From Clostridia bacterium (lineage in GTDB: Bacteria; Bacillota; Peptococcia; DRI-13; SM3-B62): a stretch of 64,000 nucleotides of DNA. The translations under genes were made by a program, and so were the position numbers. The notes below the pieces were generated by a model, which did no database searches, had not been told where the DNA came from, and saw only the letters and a list, made by a program, of their open reading frames with translations. The stretch spans positions 62,001 through 126,000 of the forward strand of contig JAHDSQ010000011.1 in NCBI GenBank assembly GCA_018432615.1. The letters run 5' to 3'. This document shows, piece after piece, positions 37,640 through 49,236 of the stretch; positions within the stretch are counted from its first letter, which is position 1; each line of letters begins with the position of its first letter.

Positions 37640-38476
37640 CTAATTGATAGTTTTTGACCAAAGGTTCATATCCTCGAAATTACCGCAGATATCACAGTTA
37701 TTAATAAACCTTCCGTAATAGTTGTAACCGTGCTTGGCAAAAACCGTGTTGATCCCCGCCGATCCGGCCCGGGCAATCGTATAAATAGTGATTAATCCCA
37801 TTTCCTTCGCCTGTTTTTCTAAATAGTACAAAAGATGCGCCATCAGACCCTGACCCCTATACTCCGGCGAGGTTACGCAATCGGTCAACTCAGTGCTGAG
37901 GGTTTCGGAATCTACGTCTAACGAAGCCGCACTAATGATTTGCCCCTTGTGGGTCACAACCATAAAAACAGCACCTTTTCGCATGGCCTCTTTTAAGTAT
38001 CCTTCGTCATTCACATCAGTAGGATATGTTACAAATACACTGCTATACAGTTTCGCTAATCCGGCAACGTCCGATTGTAAGGCCACACGTATTTTGTAAT
38101 CTTTGTTTAAAGCTGACATTTCCCGACTACTGTTTTTAGCAACACCCAGCAATTCCTCTTCTTTTTCCCAGTCTGCCGGAGTCCTCCGTTCGCGAGAATA
38201 AAATTTTGACACATGAAAGCCTGCTTTTCCTCTAAAAAAAGTAGGATGCAGCGCCTCTAACCAATACCCTCTTACAAAAAATTCTTGCCAGTCCTGTTCC
38301 CCAGCAGTAAGAATTGTTTTTGTCAAATTGTTTTCCACAGCAAGGACATCCAAGTATTTCGTAAGAGCGTCGTAATCAGTCGCAAAATAGCTTTTAATCT
38401 TTACCCTCTTATTTGTCCAATCAAGAAGGTACTTTACAGAATAACCTTCTTCTTCTTTGACGCTCCATAATGCCAT
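37640..38476 (-). CDS. ablB: beta-lysine N6-acetyltransferase AblB
   Basis: AblB acetylates L-beta-lysine to N-epsilon-acetyl-beta-lysine, a compatible solute of methanogens and some anaerobic bacteria. The product (278 residues) has an N-terminal AblB-specific region and a C-terminal GNAT domain (about 128-265) with VTSPEYRGQGLMAHLLYYLEKQA and a Cys-containing end NNCDICGNFEDMNLW. The ATG at 38476 lies nine bases after GGGAGG; an in-frame TTG at 38482 is too near. It directly follows a lysine 2,3-aminomutase gene, which would supply beta-lysine. Confidence 0.88.
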   Translation of the reverse strand: MALWSVKEEEGYSVKYLLDWTNKRVKIKSYFATDYDALTKYLDVLAVENNLTKTILTAGEQDWQEFFVRGYWLEALHPTFFRGKAGFHVSKFYSRERRTPADWEKEEELLGVAKNSSREMSALNKDYKIRVALQSDVAGLAKLYSSVFVTYPTDVNDEGYLKEAMRKGAVFMVVTHKGQIISAASLDVDSETLSTELTDCVTSPEYRGQGLMAHLLYYLEKQAKEMGLITIYTIARAGSAGINTVFAKHGYNYYGRFINNCDICGNFEDMNLWSKTIN

Positions 38477-38491
38477 TCTCAAGTTCCTCCC

Positions 38492-39649
38492 TTAACCGCT
38501 TTTGCGATTTTTAACAATATCTTTACCGATAGCTTTATCCGGCTCGGTATAAGTAAATATCTTCCCTTGATAATTCCTCAGAATAACCTTGTTATCGGTT
38601 CTGGAGATCACATATTGCGGGCTGACAGGAATCTTTCCTCCACCACCGGGGGCATCAATAACATAATGCGGAACAGCCATTCCTGAAGTATGGCCTCGCA
38701 AGTTTTCCATAATTTCAATACCCTTACCTACTGAGGTCCTGAAGTGTCCAATACCTCTAGACATATCACATTGATAAATATAGTATGGCCTAACACGTAT
38801 CGTTAATAATTTCTGCATGAGTTCTTTCATTATCTGGGGAGAATCATTGACACCCTTTAACAAGACCGTCTGGTTCCCCAAGGGCACACCACTATCCGCC
38901 AGCCTAGTACAAGCCTTTTTGGCCTCCGGCGTTATTTCCCGAGGATGATTAAAATGAGTGTTGATCCATACCGGATGATATTTTTTCAAAATCTGGCACA
39001 ACTCTTTGGTGATACGTTGGGGCATAACCACCGGCGTGCGGGTGCCGATTCTGATTATTTCCACATGAGGAATTTCTCTTAAGCTTCGCAAGATATAGTC
39101 GATCTGCTCATCCGGCAGTGTAAAAGGATCCCCTCCCGAGACCACCACGTCCCTCACTTCCGGTGTCTCTCTGATATACTTTAAAGCCATCTCAATCTGC
39201 TTTCTTGGCATGGCTCCATCCTTTTGCCCTGCCATTCTCCTTCTCGTGCAATGCCGACAATACATAGCACACTGATCTGTCACCAAAAGCAAAACACGGT
39301 CTGGATAACGGTGTGTCAATCCGCTTACGGGTGAATCTTCATCCTCGTGTAACGGGTCATCCATATCACAACTATATGACAACAGCTCCGATTCGGAAGG
39401 AACTGCCTGTTTTCTTATCGGACAATTGGGATCATCACGATCCATCAAAGATGCATAATATGGTGTGATTGCCATCCTAAACTTCTTCAGACAAGCACCG
39501 ATCCCTTTCATTTCTTCATTTTTCAGCTTAACACTGCCATACAATTGTGAAAGTGTTGTCATACGGTTTGCCAACTGCCATTTCCAATCATCCCAGTTCG
39601 ACTCATCGATATCACACCACTTACGCACACTCTCAGAACCAATACTCAT
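38492..39649 (-). CDS. ablA: lysine 2,3-aminomutase (AblA/KamA), copy 1
   Basis: This radical SAM, PLP-dependent enzyme turns L-lysine into L-beta-lysine. The 385-residue product has the radical SAM cluster motif [12 protein letters not shown] (CxxxCxxC), the [11 protein letters not shown] and [13 protein letters not shown] segments (PLP-binding Lys in the region), and the Asp residues of YQCD and [10 protein letters not shown] that in KamA hold the lysine side-chain amine. It is shorter than clostridial KamA at both ends and lacks the usual C-terminal Cys/zinc segment. The ATG at 39649 has AGGAGGG upstream. It is followed by ablB after 15 bases. Confidence 0.93.
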
Positions 39650-39743
39650 AATTACCCTCCTAAATTAAAACATACTAATGAAAACTTACAACTTATTATA
39701 GCATACCGAGGTTGTCTATTCAACCCTTTTTTATCCATTTTAC

Positions 39744-39774
39744 CTGTAAGACTCTGTAAGTATGGATCTGTAAG
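39744..39774. repeat. three CTGTAAG repeats between the two aminomutase genes
   Basis: CTGTAAG occurs at 39744-39750, 39754-39760 and 39768-39774. They lie about 95-125 bases upstream of the copy 1 start codon and just after the stop of copy 2. They could be an operator or a remnant. Confidence 0.5.
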
Positions 39775-39781
39775 TGTTATT

Positions 39782-41050
39782 TTATTGAAGGTATTTTTGT
39801 CTCCTTATCTCTCGTTTATTTCCTCTGGGGATTAAGCTCTCCTTATCACCGTAAAACAACTTAGCAATTCCGCCCGTCGGCTTATAAATATCATAATCGT
39901 CGCAATCATTACATCTGTCAGGGCACTCACTGTCTCTATGCTGAGGTTGAGAATAAGAGGTAATTATTCCTTCATAATTTCTGAGAATAACCTTTTCATC
40001 AGACATTGAAATCAAATACTGCGGAGCCACCGGTATTTTCCCTCCGCCGCCCGGAGCATCAATAACATATGTCGGGACTGCCAATCCCGAAGTATGTCCT
40101 CTGAGCATCTCAATAATCTCAATTCCCTTAGCAACTGAGGTTCGATAATGCTCGACCCCCTCGACGAGATCACATTGGTAAAGATAATATGGTCTTACCC
40201 TCATTTTCAACAAAAGGTGCATCAGCTTTTTTATAATATGGGGACAGTCATTGACCCCCTTTAACAGTACAGTTTGGTTTCCCAACGGGATTCCGGCATC
40301 AGCAAGACGCGCACAAGCCTCCTTGGCCTCTTCGGTTATTTCCTTCGGATGATTGAAATGAGTATTGATCCAAATAGGGTGATACTTCTTCAAGATCCGA
40401 CAAAGCTCCGGCGTGATCCTTTGCGGAAGTACCACCGGTGTACGTGTGCCAAACCTGATGATTTCCACATGACTGATCCGAGCCAACCTATTGAGGATAT
40501 ATTCCACATCATCGTCCTCTAGAAGAAGCGCATCGCCACCGGAAATCAGAACATCTCTGACTGCCGGAGTATTGCTGATATAAGCAATAGCCGCATCTAA
40601 ATCCTCCTTGCTTCTCATACAATCAGTTCCTCCCGCAAGGCGTCTCCTGGTGCAATGTCGACAATACATAGCACATTGGTCCGTCACCAGAAATAAAACT
40701 CTATCCGGATACCTATGTGTTAAACCGTTCACCGGTGAATCCTTGTCTTCAAAAAGCGGATCCCTGCTTTCATATCCTGCTTTATCCAGCTCACTCACTA
40801 ACGGAACGGCCTGCTTCCTGATTGGGCATTCCGGATCATGCTTATCCATCAGAGAGGCATAATATGGAGTTATCGCCATCCGTAAGGACTCGAGACACCT
40901 TTTGATACCTTGTTCTTCCTCCCCAGTAAGCTCAATTATTTCCTTGAGCTCTTCTATAGTAGTAATACGGTTTGTTACCTGCCAGTGCCAGTCAGACCAA
41001 AGGTTATTTGCCACATCCTTCCGACTTTCCATCCCTTCTTTGTATTCCAC
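39782..41050 (-). CDS. kamA: lysine 2,3-aminomutase (KamA), copy 2
   Basis: A paralogue of copy 1, 422 residues, with the same radical SAM motif [36 protein letters not shown] and Asp residues in YQCD and [10 protein letters not shown] that point to lysine as substrate. In contrast to copy 1 it has a C-terminal extension with [15 protein letters not shown] (three Cys, as in the zinc-binding tail of clostridial KamA) and a basic end. The GTG at 41050 follows GGGAG; an ATG six codons later is possible. It probably forms an operon with copy 1 and ablB, or has its own promoter and 130-bp gap. Confidence 0.92.
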
Positions 41051-41177
41051 TAAAACACCACTCCCTCAGTATTTTCCCAACCTTTTACAGGCTATCCTAC
41101 GGTTTTAAGATACCCTTTTATGAATCAAACAATTCCACCGCCTAGTCACTCGCCCATGCCAGACGCACCAACAAAAA

Positions 41178-41205
41178 CGGAACTAGACAATGTAGTCCAG
41201 TTCCG
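41178..41205 (-). terminator. terminator overlapping the splB stop codon
   Basis: CGGAACT (41178-41184) pairs with AGTTCCG (41199-41205), with an inner GAC/GTC helix, and TTTTTG follows on the minus strand. The last codons and the TAG stop (41185-41183) of splB lie inside the hairpin. Confidence 0.85.
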
Positions 41206-42205
41206 CTTGCGGGAAAAAAGCAGCTATGCTATTACTAAAATACTCTTTTACCTTTTTCATTTCCTCCGGTGGATATATATATTTACCATAACCAAACTGC
41301 CCGTACTTAAACCTTCTATTTTCTTCATCCATAGGCAGCGAACTCTGTTGGTATATTTCCAAGATGTTCTTTTTTGCCCTCGCAGTAAACCTGTGGGTGA
41401 CTATTTCGAAGGTCAGTCCATCTTGACTGTCACGAGGTAAATGCTTTTTTAATTCTTGCAAGAGGGCCTTATATTCCTCCTGCCATCCCTCTCGTAAAAT
41501 CACAGGAGCAATCAATATTCCTAAGGGGTAGCCTGCTGCAGCAACCTTGCCTGCAGCTGTAAGACGATCAGCAAGTCTCGGAGTTGCATGTTCGAACGCG
41601 TTGATTATTCCGGGGGTATTTAAACTGAATCTAAACCGTGTCCGTTTGTTATGCTTAAGACCCAAAAGAGGCTCAACTCCAGTAAACTTCGTCACGAAAC
41701 GGAAACGACCATAGTCCTGTTTGCTAAAGAACTCTATCGTTTGCGCCAGTGCCCCGGTATATGGTTCGTAAGGCAAAGGGTCCGAGGTTGCCGCCCCTTC
41801 AAAAGTCGTAATCTCGGGAATACGTTTTTCGATGTACTCAGCCGTCTTTTGCAGAATCTCATCAAGGTTAACATATACACGCAAGTAAGGCTTTTTACCC
41901 AGTGTGGTGTTTAGATAACAGTATTCACACCTGCCTAAACAACTGGTACACAATGGAAGCTGGTAGTGGGCAGACGGCTTGCATGTTTCAAATTTTAATG
42001 TTTTTCTAACCCCGACAACAAGTGTCTTTTTAGCTTCCAGATATGCCTCTTTTCGATCTTTACCCGGTATCCCGGTCACTCTGTTATGGCTCCCAATTAG
42101 CTTTACCGGCACATTTTGTTCTTTAAAATGCTGCCAAAGCTTTTTCCCAAGAGGATAATCAAGAGCCGCATGTTCAAAATATACCCTGCGGGGGATAAAT
42201 ACCAT
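41183..42205 (-). CDS. splB: spore photoproduct lyase
   Basis: SplB is a radical SAM repair enzyme that reverses the spore photoproduct thymine dimer during germination. The product is 340 residues, close to the family length, with the cluster motif CLGRCEYCYL (CxxxCxxC, about residues 89-96). The loop that carries the hydrogen-donor Cys of Bacillus SplB (CTSD) reads EGAATSD, so an Ala (about 139) seems to replace it. A further Cys at about 75 (FETCKP) is conserved in position with other family Cys. The ATG at 42205 has AGGTG nine bases upstream and matches Bacillus numbering better than the GTG at 42217. Confidence 0.93.
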   Translation of the reverse strand: MVFIPRRVYFEHAALDYPLGKKLWQHFKEQNVPVKLIGSHNRVTGIPGKDRKEAYLEAKKTLVVGVRKTLKFETCKPSAHYQLPLCTSCLGRCEYCYLNTTLGKKPYLRVYVNLDEILQKTAEYIEKRIPEITTFEGAATSDPLPYEPYTGALAQTIEFFSKQDYGRFRFVTKFTGVEPLLGLKHNKRTRFRFSLNTPGIINAFEHATPRLADRLTAAGKVAAAGYPLGILIAPVILREGWQEEYKALLQELKKHLPRDSQDGLTFEIVTHRFTARAKKNILEIYQQSSLPMDEENRRFKYGQFGYGKYIYPPEEMKKVKEYFSNSIAAFFPQAELDYIV

Positions 42206-42262
42206 GACATCCGACACCTAACCGTATTTTTCTGATAACCATATCATTCCCCTCTCCACTAT

Positions 42263-43042
42263 CTATCCATACATTTGGGGATTACGGTCAGCAAAACAAT
42301 TCATATACCTCCGTGTCCTCTTAACTAAGCTAAAATCTATCTCCGCGCAAAGAGTCCCCTCCTGTTCATCGCCCTCTATAAGAATATTTCCTTCCGGTCC
42401 AACTACCGTCGAGTGTCCAAAAAACTCGACCTGTTTTTCAACTCCTGCCCTGTTAACTGCTGCCACGAAAAACTGGTTTTCAATGGCTCGCGCCCGTAAT
42501 AACGTCTGCCAATGCTGCAACCTAGGGTGAGGCCATTGAGCCGGTACGAAAAGCAGTTCAATCCCATCTAGGGCCAAGGCACGCGCTAATTCCGGGAACC
42601 GCAATTCATAGCAAATCATTACTCCGCATTTCACACCGTCGAGAATGAAAGTAACCCGCTCGCTCCCTTTATGCAGACACTTATCTTCTTTCATTAAACC
42701 AAAAAGGTGCCCCTTATCATAACGGGCCACTTCCTTTCCGTTTCGATCATATACATAACAAGTGTTGTAAAGCCGGCCCTCTCTTAAATCAGCAACAGAT
42801 CCCGCAACGATGTTCACAGAATATTTTGCTGCCAGTTCTCCCAGCATTGAGGCACTGGGTTTACCAAAACGATCGGCTAAACTCTCTAATTCCTCCAGTG
42901 CTAATCCGGTGTTCCACATTTCAGGTAAAACAATCACATCCGGCTTATTGACGGCGGCTTTCTTAACCTGCTTAATAATATTCTCTTGATTTTTCTCAGG
43001 ATTCCCCAAGACAATATCCGTTTGTACCAACGCCAGCTTCAT
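42263..43042 (-). CDS. nitrilase-superfamily carbon-nitrogen hydrolase (omega-amidase-like)
   Basis: The 259-residue product has the catalytic triad of the superfamily: Glu in VLPEMWNTG, Lys in ARYDKGHLFG and Cys in VMICYELRFPEL. These short enzymes commonly hydrolyse small amides such as alpha-ketoglutaramate (omega-amidase). The ATG at 43042 is eight bases after GGGAG; the ATG at 43048 overlaps the stop of the hydrogenase-like gene. The overlap suggests cotranscription and translational coupling with it. Confidence 0.9.
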   Translation of the reverse strand: MKLALVQTDIVLGNPEKNQENIIKQVKKAAVNKPDVIVLPEMWNTGLALEELESLADRFGKPSASMLGELAAKYSVNIVAGSVADLREGRLYNTCYVYDRNGKEVARYDKGHLFGLMKEDKCLHKGSERVTFILDGVKCGVMICYELRFPELARALALDGIELLFVPAQWPHPRLQHWQTLLRARAIENQFFVAAVNRAGVEKQVEFFGHSTVVGPEGNILIEGDEQEGTLCAEIDFSLVKRTRRYMNCFADRNPQMYG

Positions 43043-43044
43043 GA

Positions 43045-44358
43045 TCATCGCTCCCGCTTTTCGTATTGGTTCATCGACGGCGGCATTTTTTTGGCTAAAT
43101 CAACCATTCTTTCGGCCAGTCCTGAGACATTTTCCCGCAACTTGATAATGCAATCTAACTCATCCGCCTTACCCCGTACAATATCCTCGGCCAAGGCCCT
43201 ACAAGTAGGGGCACCACAGGCTCCGCAATCCAAGCCGGGCAAATCCTCGGTAATCTCCTCTATTTCCCCCATTTTTTTAATGGCTTTTACCATATCCTCG
43301 TCTAAACGCAAGACATTCTGAGGAGTAATAGGTTTATCGTAGACAAAACCATCAGCTAATTCCGCAGAAACTTGAGGCAACTCCCCGGTAATGCCTTCAC
43401 TCAACTTGCTGATACGTTCCTTAGCCATAAAAGGATTCTCCACTGTTAAAGGCCCTCCGACACATCCTCCTGAACAGGCCAAAGCCTCTATAAAATCGAC
43501 TTCCTTCAATTTTCCCATCATAGCGTCCTCTAATACCCTTGTCACATTGGTCAAACCGTCAACAGATATATGACGTCTATCCTTTATAAGCCTTGATTCA
43601 CCGCCGCTAATGGCCCAGCCTATTCCGGCTGATGTTGACTTCTGCAACACCTTGTTCATTTTTTCTTCCTTGATTTTTTCAAGCAGCGGCCCATAAATAT
43701 CGGAGATCGCCAATACGCCGTCCACGTTTGACTTCTCTTTACCGAGAGGATTTTTAACAATCGTAAATTTTGCAGCACACGGCGAAATGAAAAAAACCCC
43801 AATGTCTTCTCTGGCATAGCCTTCCGCAGCCAATTCCTCCTTGACCATATAAGCCGCGACTTCCATAGGGGAATCCACCGGCAAAATATGGTCAACCAGT
43901 TCGGGATAACGAATCCTTATCAGCCTCATCACTGTTGGACACGCTGAGGATATCACCGGTTTGGGCAGGTCATGCTCTTTTAGATATCGTTCTGTAACCT
44001 TCGATACTATCTCTGCCCCTCTGGCCACCTCCCAAACTTTAAAAAAGCCCAATCCATACAGACCGGAAATTATCTTATCTACAGAAACATTGCCCTTGAA
44101 CTGCCCATAAAGGGACGGTGCCGGAATTGCTACCGGATAACGAAACTTTTTAATTTCCTCTAAAGAATCAGTAATAGCGGTTTTCGCATGATGAGGACAA
44201 ATTCTAATACACTCTCCGCAGTCAATGCATCGTTCATCAATTATTTTAGCTTTACCATCCCGTACCCTGATGGCTTCTGTAGGACAGTGCTTAATACAAT
44301 TTGTGCATCCCTTACATTTATCTTTGTCCAGCGTTACCGCATGAATTAAAGAACCCAT
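43045..44358 (-). CDS. [FeFe]-hydrogenase-like iron-sulfur protein (HfsB/sensory type)
   Basis: The 437-residue product begins with two [4Fe-4S] ferredoxin motifs (Cys 15, 18, 21, 25 and 44, 47, 50, 54), continues with the H-cluster domain whose cysteines are in SSACP, ISPCAAKF and LACSGGCVGGP, and ends with a C-terminal extra cluster motif DCGACGAPTC ... DC (about 378-405). This layout matches the putative sensory [FeFe]-hydrogenases (HfsB-like) that lack the accessory maturation-linked subunits and are thought to sense redox or H2. The H-cluster motif variants differ from the TSCCPxW form of energy-producing enzymes. It lies directly downstream of an anti-sigma-type HATPase gene. Confidence 0.86.
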   Translation of the reverse strand: MGSLIHAVTLDKDKCKGCTNCIKHCPTEAIRVRDGKAKIIDERCIDCGECIRICPHHAKTAITDSLEEIKKFRYPVAIPAPSLYGQFKGNVSVDKIISGLYGLGFFKVWEVARGAEIVSKVTERYLKEHDLPKPVISSACPTVMRLIRIRYPELVDHILPVDSPMEVAAYMVKEELAAEGYAREDIGVFFISPCAAKFTIVKNPLGKEKSNVDGVLAISDIYGPLLEKIKEEKMNKVLQKSTSAGIGWAISGGESRLIKDRRHISVDGLTNVTRVLEDAMMGKLKEVDFIEALACSGGCVGGPLTVENPFMAKERISKLSEGITGELPQVSAELADGFVYDKPITPQNVLRLDEDMVKAIKKMGEIEEITEDLPGLDCGACGAPTCRALAEDIVRGKADELDCIIKLRENVSGLAERMVDLAKKMPPSMNQYEKRER

Positions 44359-44368
44359 TTTATTATAA

Positions 44369-44815
44369 CTAGCCTCCCTTGTAGAGCACCATCGTCACAG
44401 TCGTACCTACATCCTCCCGCGACTCTATCTCGAATTCGTCTGCGCAATTACGCATATTTGGCAGTCCCATTCCGGCACCAAAGCCCATCTCCCGGACCTG
44501 CTCGGGTGCCGTGGAAAAACCTTCCTTCATGGCAAGTGCCACATCCGGTATCCCGGGGCCTTCGTCTTTTGCCACCAGCACTACCTTCTCCGGATATATT
44601 TTTACTTTTAATGAACCGCCCAAAGAATGAATAACAATATTCATTTCCGCTTCATAAGTCGCTATGGCGGCACAACGAATAGTGCTTCCCGTAAAACCTA
44701 AACGCAATAACTTCTTTTTTATTTTTGAACTCGCCTCTCCGGCTCTCACGAAATCTCCGCGTTCAATCTCAAAGAATAGTTCTATGGGCGTTATCTCACT
44801 CTTTCCCTCAGTCAT
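44369..44815 (-). CDS. HATPase domain protein, anti-sigma factor-like
   Basis: The 148-residue product is a GHKL ATPase without a histidine phosphotransfer part: N box in IATYEAEMNIVIHS, G1 box KDEGPGIPD and G2 box GFGAGMGLPNM. This is the RsbW/SpoIIAB-like form that binds a partner, such as a sigma factor or antagonist, and may phosphorylate it. It is followed by the [FeFe]-hydrogenase-like gene with an 11-base gap and preceded by cheW. In other Clostridia similar proteins accompany sensory hydrogenases; the target here is unknown. Confidence 0.86.
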   Translation of the reverse strand: MTEGKSEITPIELFFEIERGDFVRAGEASSKIKKKLLRLGFTGSTIRCAAIATYEAEMNIVIHSLGGSLKVKIYPEKVVLVAKDEGPGIPDVALAMKEGFSTAPEQVREMGFGAGMGLPNMRNCADEFEIESREDVGTTVTMVLYKGG

Positions 44816-44826
44816 CTTATCATTTC

Positions 44827-45285
44827 CTAACCTTCCATTTCAACTTTGAGCCGATCTTTTTCCTGGCCTGTAAAAGTACCCGCCATATCAAGTATGATTA
44901 TTAATCTGGCATCAACCTTGCCGATACCGACTATCCCTGAATCAGATGTACTCTTGTTTATAACATTTGGCAGTTCTATCGCTTCCTCGTCGATACTTAT
45001 CACTTCAGATACTTCGTCAATGATAATACCAACAGCCTGCTCACCTATATCGGTAATAATGATCCGGCTATTTTGACCAATAGCCGAACTCTGATAGCCG
45101 AATTTCCTCTTTAAATCAATGATCGGTATAACCCTTCCTCTTAAACTAATAACACCCTCTATCATTTCGGATGCCTGGGGAATCTTAGTTATTTCCTGCA
45201 TTTGAATAATCTCAAAAACATCTTTAATGTCAATCCCATATTCTTCAGTGCCAATTTGAAATACAACCACCTGTTTATTAGCCAT
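44827..45285 (-). CDS. chemotaxis-type scaffold protein CheW
   Basis: CheW links chemoreceptors to the kinase CheA. The product (152 residues) has the two-subdomain SH3-like CheW fold with VFQIGTEEYGIDIKDVFEI, GVISLRGRVIPIIDLK and ARLIIILDM. The ATG at 45285 follows AAGGAG. The gene is upstream of the HATPase and hydrogenase genes on the same strand; no CheA, receptor or methyltransferase gene is in the window, so it may act outside classical chemotaxis. Confidence 0.92.
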   Translation of the reverse strand: MANKQVVVFQIGTEEYGIDIKDVFEIIQMQEITKIPQASEMIEGVISLRGRVIPIIDLKRKFGYQSSAIGQNSRIIITDIGEQAVGIIIDEVSEVISIDEEAIELPNVINKSTSDSGIVGIGKVDARLIIILDMAGTFTGQEKDRLKVEMEG

Positions 45286-45445
45286 CCCTCTCACTCCTTA
45301 TATACTATTTTTGTTAACTCTTTATTCTGTTTATTTTTTCCCTTTATGTAATTCTCCCTTCATTACCCGGTTTCCTGCCGCATTGTATTTTCACACAGGT
45401 TTCTTGGTTAGTAATAATATTTTTTAAGAAGGTTTTGATATTTGC

Positions 45446-45474
45446 TTGGAGAATAAATAACTCATTAGTATAAT
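45446..45474 (+). promoter_or_regulatory. promoter of the small membrane protein gene
   Basis: TTGGAG at 45446-45451 and TATAAT at 45469-45474 are separated by 17 bases; the start codon is 42 bases downstream. Confidence 0.6.
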
Positions 45475-45515
45475 AATATCACTAAAAACAATTCCGTTCA
45501 AAAGGGAGGATTATC

Positions 45516-45785
45516 GTGGGTGACATCGATTGGAAACAATTTCTAATTATGATCATTGTAGCTGCCATTCTTGGTGTGTTGCTACGTTTAGGCATCAATC
45601 TCCTCGAATCGCGAAAAATGATCAAAGATCTGGAAAAATATTTCGGTAAAAAACTGCCGCTCAATAAAAAAGGGAACGGCGAAATCGATTGGAACAAAGT
45701 TCTGAAAATGTTACGCAAGGAACCTACCACAGAAAAAGTTGCCCACTGGAAAGTATTAGTAAAAAAAAGATTGAAAGGCATCTAA
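45516..45785 (+). CDS. small membrane protein of unknown function
   Basis: The 89-residue product has one N-terminal membrane span (about 8-27) followed by a cytoplasmic, Lys-rich, helical part. I do not recognise it. The GTG at 45516 follows GGGAGG. It is an isolated plus-strand gene between cheW and the two-component system genes; its stop lies within a strong terminator hairpin. Confidence 0.7.
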   Translation: MGDIDWKQFLIMIIVAAILGVLLRLGINLLESRKMIKDLEKYFGKKLPLNKKGNGEIDWNKVLKMLRKEPTTEKVAHWKVLVKKRLKGI

Positions 45786-45803
45786 AAAAGGTGCCTTTCA
45801 ATC
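45769..45803. terminator. bidirectional terminator overlapping the end of the small membrane protein gene
   Basis: GATTGAAAGGCA (45769-45780) and TGCCTTTCAATC (45792-45803) form a perfect 12-bp stem; the TAA stop at 45783-45785 lies in the loop. TTTTT follows on the plus strand and eight T on the minus strand, so it also ends the response-regulator transcript. Confidence 0.92.
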
Positions 45804-45833
45804 TTTTTCATCCTATAAAGCGGAATAACTATG

Positions 45834-46529
45834 TCACACTTTGCTCCTAATCATATATCCCACACCACTACAGGTAACAATATACTCCGGATTACTGGAA
45901 TCCTTTTCTATCTTTTGCCTTAACCGACCGATACTAACCCTTAAATAATGTGTACAATCACGGTAATCCTCGCCCCAAATAGCCAGCATCAACTCTTCGT
46001 GAGGTACAACTTTATCTAGATTATTCACCAAATAATTGAGCACCTTAAATTCCGTCGGGGTCAAATGTATGGTTTGATCGTCGACACTAACCGCCCTTTG
46101 CGTCATATCAACAACCATTTTCCCTATCTTAATCTTATCCGACTGAACATGGGAGATGTTAGCCTTAGCCCTGCGCATAACTGCGTTGATCCTCGCCAGC
46201 AGTTCGTCTACAGCAAAAGGTTTTGTGATATAATCATCGCCCCCGGCATTCAACCCTTCCACCGCATCCTGAATATCGTTCTTGGCCGTAATCATCACTA
46301 TCGGGACATCCGAACCCTCCCTTATCCTGCGACACACTTCAAGTCCATCAATTTTCGGGAGCATTATGTCCAGGACAATAACATCTGGCTTGACTTTCTC
46401 AAACTGTTCCAGCGCGTCGATCCCATTCGTAGCCGACACCACCTCAAACCCGCTTGCACGCAGGTTTGCTCTCACAAATCGTAAAATATTAGACTCGTCC
46501 TCTACCACTAATGCTAAAGGTCTTTTCAT
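45834..46529 (-). CDS. OmpR/PhoB-family response regulator
   Basis: The 231-residue product has a receiver domain (acid pocket Glu10-Asp11, phosphorylated Asp54 in IVLDIMLP, Lys in ITKPF) and a winged-helix DNA-binding domain (LTPTEFKVLNYLV ... RVSIGRLRQKIE). It is the partner of the histidine kinase just upstream. Its ribosome site GGAGGGGG lies inside the end of the kinase gene, which suggests coupled translation. KdpE/PhoB-like genes have many possible targets; none is marked here. Confidence 0.93.
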   Translation of the reverse strand: MKRPLALVVEDESNILRFVRANLRASGFEVVSATNGIDALEQFEKVKPDVIVLDIMLPKIDGLEVCRRIREGSDVPIVMITAKNDIQDAVEGLNAGGDDYITKPFAVDELLARINAVMRRAKANISHVQSDKIKIGKMVVDMTQRAVSVDDQTIHLTPTEFKVLNYLVNNLDKVVPHEELMLAIWGEDYRDCTHYLRVSIGRLRQKIEKDSSNPEYIVTCSGVGYMIRSKV

Positions 46530-46530
46530 T

Positions 46531-49236
46531 TTAAGAACCCCCTCCGTTTTTCACTGGAATTGTAAAATTAAAGCAACTTCCTTTCCCTACAACGCTTTCC
46601 ACCCATAACTTTCCGCCATGAGCGTTTATAATCCCTTTGGCAATTGATAACCCTACCCCACTGCCACTTATTTTGTTAACCGTTGCACTGTCTACTCGAT
46701 AAAACCTTCCAAAGATTGCTTCGTAGTGCTCAGGCTCAATACCGATTCCTTTATCTATGACACTAACCATCACCGTCTTCTTATCCAGTAAATATTTTGT
46801 CTCTATTCTAATCTCGGCTTTTTCCGGTGAGTATTTTATACCGTTTTCAATAAGATTGGATAATACCTGTTCAATCCTTACCTTATCAATATCTACCAAA
46901 GGCACCTCTCTTTCTTGCTCCACATAAAACTCCACATCAGTTCTCCTTTGTTTATATCTTTCTACAAAACCTTGAATAACCCTCCGAATATCCAGCACCT
47001 CTTTATCCAGGTAGAGAACACCCGCCTCTATTTTGGACATATCCATGACATTTTTGATTAAATCAGTCAACCGTTTGCTCTCCTCGACTATGACCCTGAT
47101 GAATTTTTCTTTCTCTTTTTCATGCAAATCAATGTCCTTGCGCAAAAGCGATTCGGCGTTTCCCCTGATAGACGTGAGCGGGGTACAAAGTTCATGTGAA
47201 ACAGTAGAAAGTATAGAGTTCTTAAGGATCTCAACTCCCTTTTCCTTGGTAATATCCCTGAAGATATAACCATAGCCAATGAAAGCACCATCCGACAACA
47301 CAGGAAAACCCGTAATGGAATAATAGTAAGCCTTATCGTCAATCCTCAAGGAACCTTCGCGCTGTAAGAAAACGCGCTGATGCAAAAAATCACTATGCAA
47401 GTCCATAAAGGGTATGTCTGTATCCATATTGTTTAAAACCTTTAAGATTTCCTTGAACGATGTACCTTGCCAGCCGTCGCTACTTAGATTGAACATTTTT
47501 TGCAACAACTGATTGACATAAATAATCTGCCCCTTATGGTCAAAGAGGGCTAGACCCTCATTCATACTATTCATTACAGCCAAAAACATATCGTGCTCTT
47601 CATTGATGTTGTTAAACAGGGTCACATTTGTTATCACGACTCCGAGTTGATTGCAAATCGCCTGCAGCATAATCATCTGTTCATCGCTGAAATGATTGGC
47701 GGTATTACCGGCCAACATGACCGTACCCAAAATCCTGTTTTTATTTATTATCGGCACACATATTAATGACCGTGAATCTTCTTTTTTTGATAACCCTTCA
47801 TCGTCCCCTTGACCATCTTTTAAATCGTTTACAATTAGGGGCCTGGAGTTGGCAATTACCCATCTGCGATAACGCTCCGTACGAGCTGCAAAAGATGCTT
47901 TCTCATCTGCCAAGTATTCATTGTGCCAAATTGACTGCTCTATTTTTTCCCCTTCCTCCTCATAAACAACAATACTCAGTATATCAAAACGAAAGAGTTT
48001 ATCAATTTCCCGCAATACCCTCTTTAGCACGTATTTCAAATTGTCCGTATTACTGACCGACGAAGCTACGGCGTACAAGGCCGACAACTCCCGGTTTTTG
48101 ACAACGAGCTCTTTTGTTCGTTCAATAATTCTTGCCTCCAGTTCTTCACTGTGCATTCTCAATAAGGTGTTTATTTCGTACATGCTTGCCGCCATATAAT
48201 TAAACCTGTCACCCAGCATTTTTATTTCCACCGGCAGACTGTAAGACTCTAAATCAACACGGAAAGTGATATCACCGTAGGATATTTTCTGACAAGCCTT
48301 GTATAGCTCTGAAATGGGCTGGGCGATGTTTAGGACTAGCAATCTCCTAACAATAACCACGACTGCAGCACATAAAAAAAGTAAAATCAAAGATAAGCCG
48401 GCGGCGCCGATTAAAGGCAAATTCACCTCTCTAATGGGAGCAGAACTCCACATACCCCATTCAGGATTTTGAATAAAAGAGTATCCCGCTATCTCCTTAC
48501 GCCGATATTCCGGCGAAAAATATTCCTGCGAAATACTGGTCCTAAACGGCAGTTTTGGCATGATATCAGCGACTATTTTGTCGGCAACCCCTGCCGAAGT
48601 GCCTAAATAGTCTACCACTTTGCCTCTACTGTCAAATATGACAGAATACCCGGAGGGATAAGTTTTAGCCTGGTGCAGTAAATTGTCAACGTAATTCCAA
48701 TCCAGTACACCCACGACAAACCCGCAATAAGTACCGCCATATTTCCATATTGGTACGGCGAGCAGCATCTTTTTATTTTTCCCGTCAGTAATAACGGGAC
48801 TAAGATAAGGTTCATTTCTATTAATAAATTCATCATAACCAATATTTGAAAATAAAAGACTTGTTATTTCCATACCCTTGGAATAAGGCACACGATACAT
48901 CTCAGTACTGGCACGAACCCCCGAAAGTTCCATGTATATTTCTGAAAAACCCTCATAATGACAATCAACCTCAGTTATCAAATCGTTTAAAACCAGCAAT
49001 AATACATCAGACTGAGCAATTTGTTTCGCCAGAGTATCGATAGCCAAAACGTGTAAATCCATAAAATAATTAATTTGCTCTGAAACCCTGTTAGCTGAAG
49101 CAAGGTGCTCCGCTTTTAATTCTTTTCCTTTTTTTGTAATATTATAAATGGACATAAAGCCAAGCAGCAAGAGAGGTATCAATACCAGAACCGCTATTAT
49201 ACTGACATAATGGGTTATGTTGTAGCTTTTTTTCAA
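46531..49236 (-). CDS. sensor histidine kinase with extracellular, HAMP, GAF and PAS domains
   Basis: The 901-residue product has a membrane span (about 10-30), a large extracellular sensor region (Cache-like, about 35-270), a second span (about 277-300), a HAMP domain and coiled coil (about 300-380), a GAF domain (about 385-545), a PAS domain (about 553-665) and the kinase core with phospho-accepting His681 in VSHELCTPL and ATP site N box IENGIKYSP, G1 DKGIGIE, G2 GSGVGLSI. A TTG start at 49236 follows GGGGGAG. The signal is not known; the GAF and PAS domains suggest that intracellular redox or ligand cues are added to an external one. It is followed by its response regulator after 1 base. 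Confidence 0.92.
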   Translation of the reverse strand: MKKSYNITHYVSIIAVLVLIPLLLLGFMSIYNITKKGKELKAEHLASANRVSEQINYFMDLHVLAIDTLAKQIAQSDVLLLVLNDLITEVDCHYEGFSEIYMELSGVRASTEMYRVPYSKGMEITSLLFSNIGYDEFINRNEPYLSPVITDGKNKKMLLAVPIWKYGGTYCGFVVGVLDWNYVDNLLHQAKTYPSGYSVIFDSRGKVVDYLGTSAGVADKIVADIMPKLPFRTSISQEYFSPEYRRKEIAGYSFIQNPEWGMWSSAPIREVNLPLIGAAGLSLILLFLCAAVVVIVRRLLVLNIAQPISELYKACQKISYGDITFRVDLESYSLPVEIKMLGDRFNYMAASMYEINTLLRMHSEELEARIIERTKELVVKNRELSALYAVASSVSNTDNLKYVLKRVLREIDKLFRFDILSIVVYEEEGEKIEQSIWHNEYLADEKASFAARTERYRRWVIANSRPLIVNDLKDGQGDDEGLSKKEDSRSLICVPIINKNRILGTVMLAGNTANHFSDEQMIMLQAICNQLGVVITNVTLFNNINEEHDMFLAVMNSMNEGLALFDHKGQIIYVNQLLQKMFNLSSDGWQGTSFKEILKVLNNMDTDIPFMDLHSDFLHQRVFLQREGSLRIDDKAYYYSITGFPVLSDGAFIGYGYIFRDITKEKGVEILKNSILSTVSHELCTPLTSIRGNAESLLRKDIDLHEKEKEKFIRVIVEESKRLTDLIKNVMDMSKIEAGVLYLDKEVLDIRRVIQGFVERYKQRRTDVEFYVEQEREVPLVDIDKVRIEQVLSNLIENGIKYSPEKAEIRIETKYLLDKKTVMVSVIDKGIGIEPEHYEAIFGRFYRVDSATVNKISGSGVGLSIAKGIINAHGGKLWVESVVGKGSCFNFTIPVKNGGGS

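Follow-up and report, generated by a model that had tools for sequence, protein, structure and literature searches.

Our best reading is that a putative sensor-kinase pair, comprising an [FeFe]-hydrogenase-like protein (HydS) and a HATPase, has parted from its usual operon and now sits inside a CheW-nitrilase locus. The locus lies in a 64,000-nucleotide stretch of DNA, called the window, from a draft genome of a Clostridia bacterium (3.16 Mb, 70 contigs). The pair itself is conserved far beyond the window's class, whereas its neighbour CheW is not.

Gene order and sequence features of the locus

Genes for CheW, a HATPase, HydS, a nitrilase and spore photoproduct lyase (SPL) follow each other, in that order, on the minus strand (Table 1). 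CheW and the HATPase are separated by 11 nt, the HATPase and HydS by 10 nt, and the nitrilase and SPL by 45 nt. The HydS and nitrilase genes overlap by 4 nt. Judged from the sequence, the run from CheW to SPL could plausibly be a single operon. The original prediction had placed CheW, the HATPase and the [FeFe]-hydrogenase correctly, and matches to Pfam families PF01584, PF02518 and PF02906 bear this out. For CheW, translation most likely starts at the ATG at 45285, behind AAGGAG, and not at the GTG at 45294. This agrees with the end coordinate given earlier. Upstream of the run are genes for a histidine kinase (46531-49236) and a response regulator (45834-46529). The small open reading frame between the two groups is kept beside CheW in several loci of the class, as detected by tblastn, and matched no Pfam or NCBIfam family. 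An Rfam scan of positions 40000-47000 gave zero matches, and we rejected the idea that the locus contains a known RNA element. A plasmid search returned distant matches alone (best 48.7% identity). Beside SPL, at 37640-41050 on the minus strand, are two adjoining KamA-like (lysine 2,3-aminomutase-type) radical SAM genes, then an acetyltransferase-like gene. The KamA-like genes share 69-74% identity with an SPL-adjacent gene in locus L209.

Table 1. Features of the HydS locus, with positions in the window
Feature	Position	Strand	Evidence
HydS, group D (M2e) [FeFe]-hydrogenase-like putative sensor, 437 aa	43045..44358	-	Pfam; motif conservation in 86 orthologs
HydS N-terminal F-domain Cys motifs, residues 15-54, two [4Fe-4S]	44197..44316	-	eight Cys invariant in 86 orthologs
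HydS H-domain, residues 76-303, four H-cluster Cys and A139/S192/L293 substitutions	43450..44133	-	Pfam; alignment
HydS C-terminal Cx2Cx4Cx16C FeS motif, residues 376-404	43147..43233	-	PF04060; alignment
SpoIIAB/RsbW-like HATPase (GHKL), 148 aa, stable HydS partner	44369..44815	-	Pfam; sequence and fold matches; motifs
CheW, 152 aa from likely ATG start, class-specific CheW ortholog clade	44827..45285	-	Pfam; tree
Carbon-nitrogen hydrolase ('nitrilase'), goes with CheW locus	42263..43048	-	PF00795
Spore photoproduct lyase, last gene of run	41183..42217	-	PF20903; TIGR04070, 538.5 bits (over cut-off)
Terminator-like hairpin, 14-pair stem, after SPL gene	41175..41208	-	consensus match only
Small divergent ORF, 89 aa, one apparent TM helix, neighbour outside HydS pair	45516..45785	+	tblastn

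HydS matches Fe_hyd_lg_C (PF02906) with 128.8 bits, and has two Fer4 motifs and a C-terminal FeS domain (PF04060, 50.5 bits). Its nearest named record, 97% identical, is a copy in Clostridia MAG SM3-B6.2. Alignment of 86 orthologs showed that all eight F-domain cysteines are invariant, as is the C-terminal motif C378-x2-C381-x4-C386-x16-C403. The four H-cluster cysteines are all present in the window's HydS (C140, C194, C295 and C299); across the orthologs, three are invariant and the fourth occurs in 85 of 86. Conversely, the proton-relay cysteine is replaced by A139, and the two flanking methionines by S192 and L293. Hence, the altered H-cluster surroundings and the motif for an extra C-terminal cluster, both claimed in the original prediction, are borne out by the sequence. 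No PAS or MCP domain was detected in HydS with Pfam. With its two Fer4 motifs, H-domain substitutions and invariant cysteines, HydS carries every sequence feature examined for group D (M2e), the putative sensory hydrogenases that include TamHydS of Thermoanaerobacter mathranii. The presence of these hallmarks backs the earlier suggestion of a sensory-type hydrogenase.

TamHydS (PMC8163306, PMC13104023) is among the closest parallels. Both proteins have an F-domain with two [4Fe-4S] clusters, an H-domain that has lost the relay cysteine and exchanged its methionines for serine and leucine, a C-terminal Cx2Cx4Cx16C cluster, no PAS domain and an adjacent HATPase. Unlike TamHydS, the window's HydS is not upstream of HydABC. 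Instead, it lies between CheW-HATPase and the nitrilase, with DRTGG and PHP genes on another contig. Note that group D genes commonly, though not always, precede a bifurcating group A hydrogenase, so the lack of one after the window's HydS does not keep it out of the group; inside the class, HydB was within 5.5 kb of HydS in 0 of 16 cases. The window's genome has four PF02906 matches: HydS and three group A enzymes, the latter on other contigs.

A stable HATPase-HydS pair, separated from its usual operon

We compared 86 de-duplicated group D loci, 69 of them from outside the window's class, and counted each neighbour where the flank sufficed. Neighbours were scored with profile searches and tblastn; some HATPase genes lie under longer antisense open reading frames (clusters c24 and c118). 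Outside the class, the HATPase gene is directly upstream of HydS at 65 of 67 loci. A small DRTGG gene is also upstream (62/64), a second DRTGG gene is downstream (63/65) and a PHP gene comes after the latter (59/62). HydB is found downstream at 39 of 53 loci. CheW was near HydS at none of 60. The usual order is thus DRTGG-HATPase-HydS-DRTGG-PHP, often then HydABC. The HATPase-HydS neighbourhood is far beyond chance. From these counts, we conclude that the stable unit is the HATPase-HydS pair, within the DRTGG-HATPase-HydS-DRTGG-PHP module. Hence, the lack of a conserved neighbourhood, named with the original prediction as grounds for refuting it, does not hold for HATPase-HydS and applies in part to CheW, whose place beside HydS is limited to the class.

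This core is already known, so the description of the locus as an undescribed system does not hold. M2e hydrogenases near protein kinases ('histidine/serine kinase') and bifurcating hydrogenases were listed in 2012 (PMC3561251), and a flanking HATPase was reported for group D in 2020 (PMC8163306). The window resembles the 2012 clusters in having HydS near a histidine/serine kinase-like gene. It differs in that HydABC, a few genes away in those clusters, is unlinked in the window's genome, and CheW is upstream. In a literature search with most subscription papers outside its reach, we found no report of the DRTGG/PHP part beside HydS, and nothing relevant linking DRTGG or CBS-HATPase proteins with hydrogenase.

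Within the class, we sampled 46 genomes, several of them drafts (genomes are labelled G, families f and loci L). Group D HydS is encoded by 18. The HATPase adjoins HydS in all of these except G033, where HydS and DRTGG are present with no HATPase at the locus. Families f11 and f2 have the order CheW-DRTGG-HATPase-HydS (G033 without the HATPase), and DRTGG is missing from the HydS locus in families f1, f4 and f8. Small DRTGG genes are nevertheless found in all 18 HydS genomes, compared to 4 of the 28 others. Thus, 18 genomes have both genes, none HydS only, four DRTGG only and 24 neither (Fisher p 2.6e-9, with relatedness and assembly gaps ignored). Joint absence of the two recurs, in G018, G010, G005 and G038; according to taxonomy, each of these shares its genus, family or order with a genome that has HydS.

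In the window's genome, contig C8 carries the cluster folC-SPOR-rex-DRTGG-DRTGG-PHP-HATPase (L204:4181-9191; the SPOR gene is SPOR-like). HydS is missing. Unlike in relatives outside the class, there is no HATPase-HydS between the two DRTGG genes. This shows that the HATPase-HydS cassette is separated from the usual operon in this genome. In which direction the cassette moved, and when, is inferred.

CheW, the nitrilase and chemotaxis

The CheW protein scores 127.5 bits against PF01584, over the cut-off. In a tree of 49 sequences, it belongs to a clade of 16 rows with support of 95/85, apart from the CheW of the flagellar chemotaxis operon. In 11 of the 18 HydS genomes of the class, from families f1, f2, f4, f8 and f11, an ortholog sits upstream of HydS, within two to three genes. 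In the other seven, it is not at the HydS locus. Four genomes without group D HydS also have the ortholog (G005, G038, G032 and G036). The arrangement in G005, HK-RR-CheW-nitrilase-SPL, is that of the window minus HATPase-HydS. G038 keeps the CheW-nitrilase order with no HydS, and G036 has CheW then a DRTGG gene only. Across the 46 genomes, HydS and the CheW ortholog occur together in 11, HydS alone in seven, CheW alone in four and neither in 24 (Fisher p 0.0015, taking no account of relatedness or assembly gaps).

All 15 genomes carrying the CheW ortholog have CheA. Counts for both, CheW only, CheA only and neither are 15, 0, 16 and 15 (Fisher p 0.0007, again ignoring relatedness and assembly gaps). 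Two genomes, G014 and G016, have no CheA and no CheW at all, yet HATPase-HydS is kept. Since its carriers all have CheA, and CheW and HydS are each found alone, we conclude that CheW is tied to chemotaxis, and to HydS through a shared site. The neighbourhood is real but class-limited. Even so, adjacency in 11 genomes and five families suggests more than a purely accidental neighbour. We rejected CheW as an obligate scaffold, given the four genomes with CheW and no HydS and the seven with the reverse. Hence, of the three-gene set originally proposed, HydS and the HATPase stand as a pair, and CheW is not an obligatory member.

The nitrilase was likewise rejected as a functional partner. It stays beside CheW once HydS is gone (L209 and L210), and gaps part it from HydS in relatives L116 and L120. 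The overlap taken earlier as a sign of coupling is therefore a local feature.

Could HydS nonetheless act through chemotaxis? CheW might dock HydS, with the HATPase, to an array of CheA and receptors, so that H2 steers swimming. This would recall HydDB group C2, putative chemotactic hydrogenases proposed to act through methyl-accepting chemotaxis proteins (PMC5037454), with a separate CheW replacing the fused receptor domain. Both are sensory-type hydrogenases linked to chemotaxis genes; the window's HydS differs in lacking an MCP domain and in having CheW as a neighbour only, and a separable one. The 11 genomes with CheW upstream of HydS all have CheA, an MCP search finds receptors there, and both HydS genomes without CheA also lack CheW. 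Furthermore, in family f8, a Fer4-Fe_hyd_lg_C-FeS-MCPsignal fusion of 636-637 aa, resembling the C2 type, is encoded downstream of HydS. It directly adjoins HydS in L121 (5899-7809, minus strand), L122 and L124, and is a few genes off in L118. The fusion and CheW are grounds for keeping H2 or redox taxis as an alternative, albeit an unlikely one. Not only are CheW and HydS separable in both directions, and CheW absent near HydS outside the class, but none of the four PF02906 matches in the window's genome is a hydrogenase-MCP fusion. As a separate observation, locus L208 (4682-9798, genome G001) contains an array of similar MCP-like proteins of 277-282 aa, with two near-identical CheW genes interspersed. 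A similar MCP array in the window's genome (L207:5134-8131) has no CheW.

The HATPase as a candidate reader of HydS

The HATPase matches HATPase_c (PF02518) with 40.7 bits. By sequence, its nearest solved relative is SpoIIAB (E about 5e-7). An AlphaFold2 model (pLDDT 92.8) has SpoIIAB as its best PDB match (1til, E 3.2e-11), followed by RsbW. The N-box (E55/N59), G1 (D84xGxG) and G2 (GFGAGMGL) motifs are conserved; across 76 orthologs, conservation of E55, N59, D84, G86, G88 and the G111-G117 loop is 100% or close to it. This conservation of the N-box Glu and Asn, and of the glycines in G1 and G2, makes it plausible that the protein binds ATP and has Ser/Thr-kinase-type chemistry. The earlier description of a serine-kinase-like HATPase is thus borne out.

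The same likeness raises the option of a partner-switching system, with the HATPase a true anti-sigma factor that HydS releases or engages. SpoIIAB and RsbW share the GHKL fold, catalytic Glu and ATP motifs with the HATPase. Against this, it scores 52.7 bits with the NCBIfam spIIAB model, well under the 135-bit equivalog cut-off, and the conserved neighbours of HATPase-HydS include neither a sigma factor nor a STAS gene. A further difference from SpoIIAB and RsbW is that the associated input is HydS or a CBS pair. We consider an anti-sigma role improbable, and call the protein SpoIIAB-like rather than an anti-sigma factor.

The CBS pair is found in a paralogue of the HydS-linked HATPase. In G002, G004, G029 and G031, a CBS-CBS-HATPase fusion lies between the two DRTGG genes of a rex-linked module (L221:5990-6900, L222:890-1870, L223:6410-7340 and L225:6260-7200), with rex, PHP and a second HATPase adjoining. 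The G002 fusion matches Pfam CBS (103 bits) and HATPase_c_2, and its HATPase part belongs to the HydS-linked family. CBS pairs commonly bind adenine nucleotides. A fusion of this kind, at the HydS position, suggests that sensory inputs to the HATPase are exchangeable. With a probably nucleotide-sensing CBS pair in HydS's place, a role for HydS as sensory input to the HATPase is therefore supported.

We think it probable, though by no means certain, that HydS and the HATPase work together as a two-protein sensor-kinase unit, in which the HATPase reads the state of HydS, a putative H2 or redox sensor. Solely from gene order, we infer that the two are in contact. H2, or low potential, would reduce HydS at its N-terminal clusters and at the H-cluster, and a change in shape would pass to the HATPase. 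This could then bind or phosphorylate a partner, the DRTGG proteins being the likeliest, and the PHP phosphoesterase may reverse the effect on DRTGG. Since HydABC is often downstream of the module, the ancestral output may act on redox or hydrogenase functions. CheW would be an auxiliary chemotaxis adaptor that tracks CheA, and may share the sensor's transcript. Several points count against a sensor-kinase unit. No conserved substrate, sigma factor or STAS gene lies beside the pair, the HATPase is missing at the G033 locus, and CheW adjoins in 11 class genomes. In addition, TamHydS shows H2 turnover in vitro (PMC8163306), so HydS may have a catalytic role. That HydS is instead a catalytic, metabolic hydrogenase with incidental neighbours is very unlikely: every cluster ligand is retained and TamHydS is active, but the relay cysteine and both methionines are replaced, the HATPase partner is near-constant and the genome encodes three group A hydrogenases besides.

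Returning to the sensor-kinase unit, a wider scheme can be sketched, tentatively. A SpoIIAB-like kinase, two DRTGG proteins and PHP might form a core with swappable inputs: a group D hydrogenase, for H2, or, in a paralogous operon beside rex (NADH), a CBS pair, probably for nucleotides. In one class, the H2 input lies next to CheW, and could also feed chemotaxis.

The signal output of putative sensory [FeFe]-hydrogenases without PAS domains is a question posed in the TamHydS papers (PMC8163306, PMC13104023). Our comparative data make the adjacent SpoIIAB-like HATPase the first candidate for passing on the HydS signal. DRTGG and PHP proteins are further candidate partners, and the CBS paralogue provides a natural replacement of the hydrogenase. 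Hence, the signalling step becomes testable with a few purified proteins.
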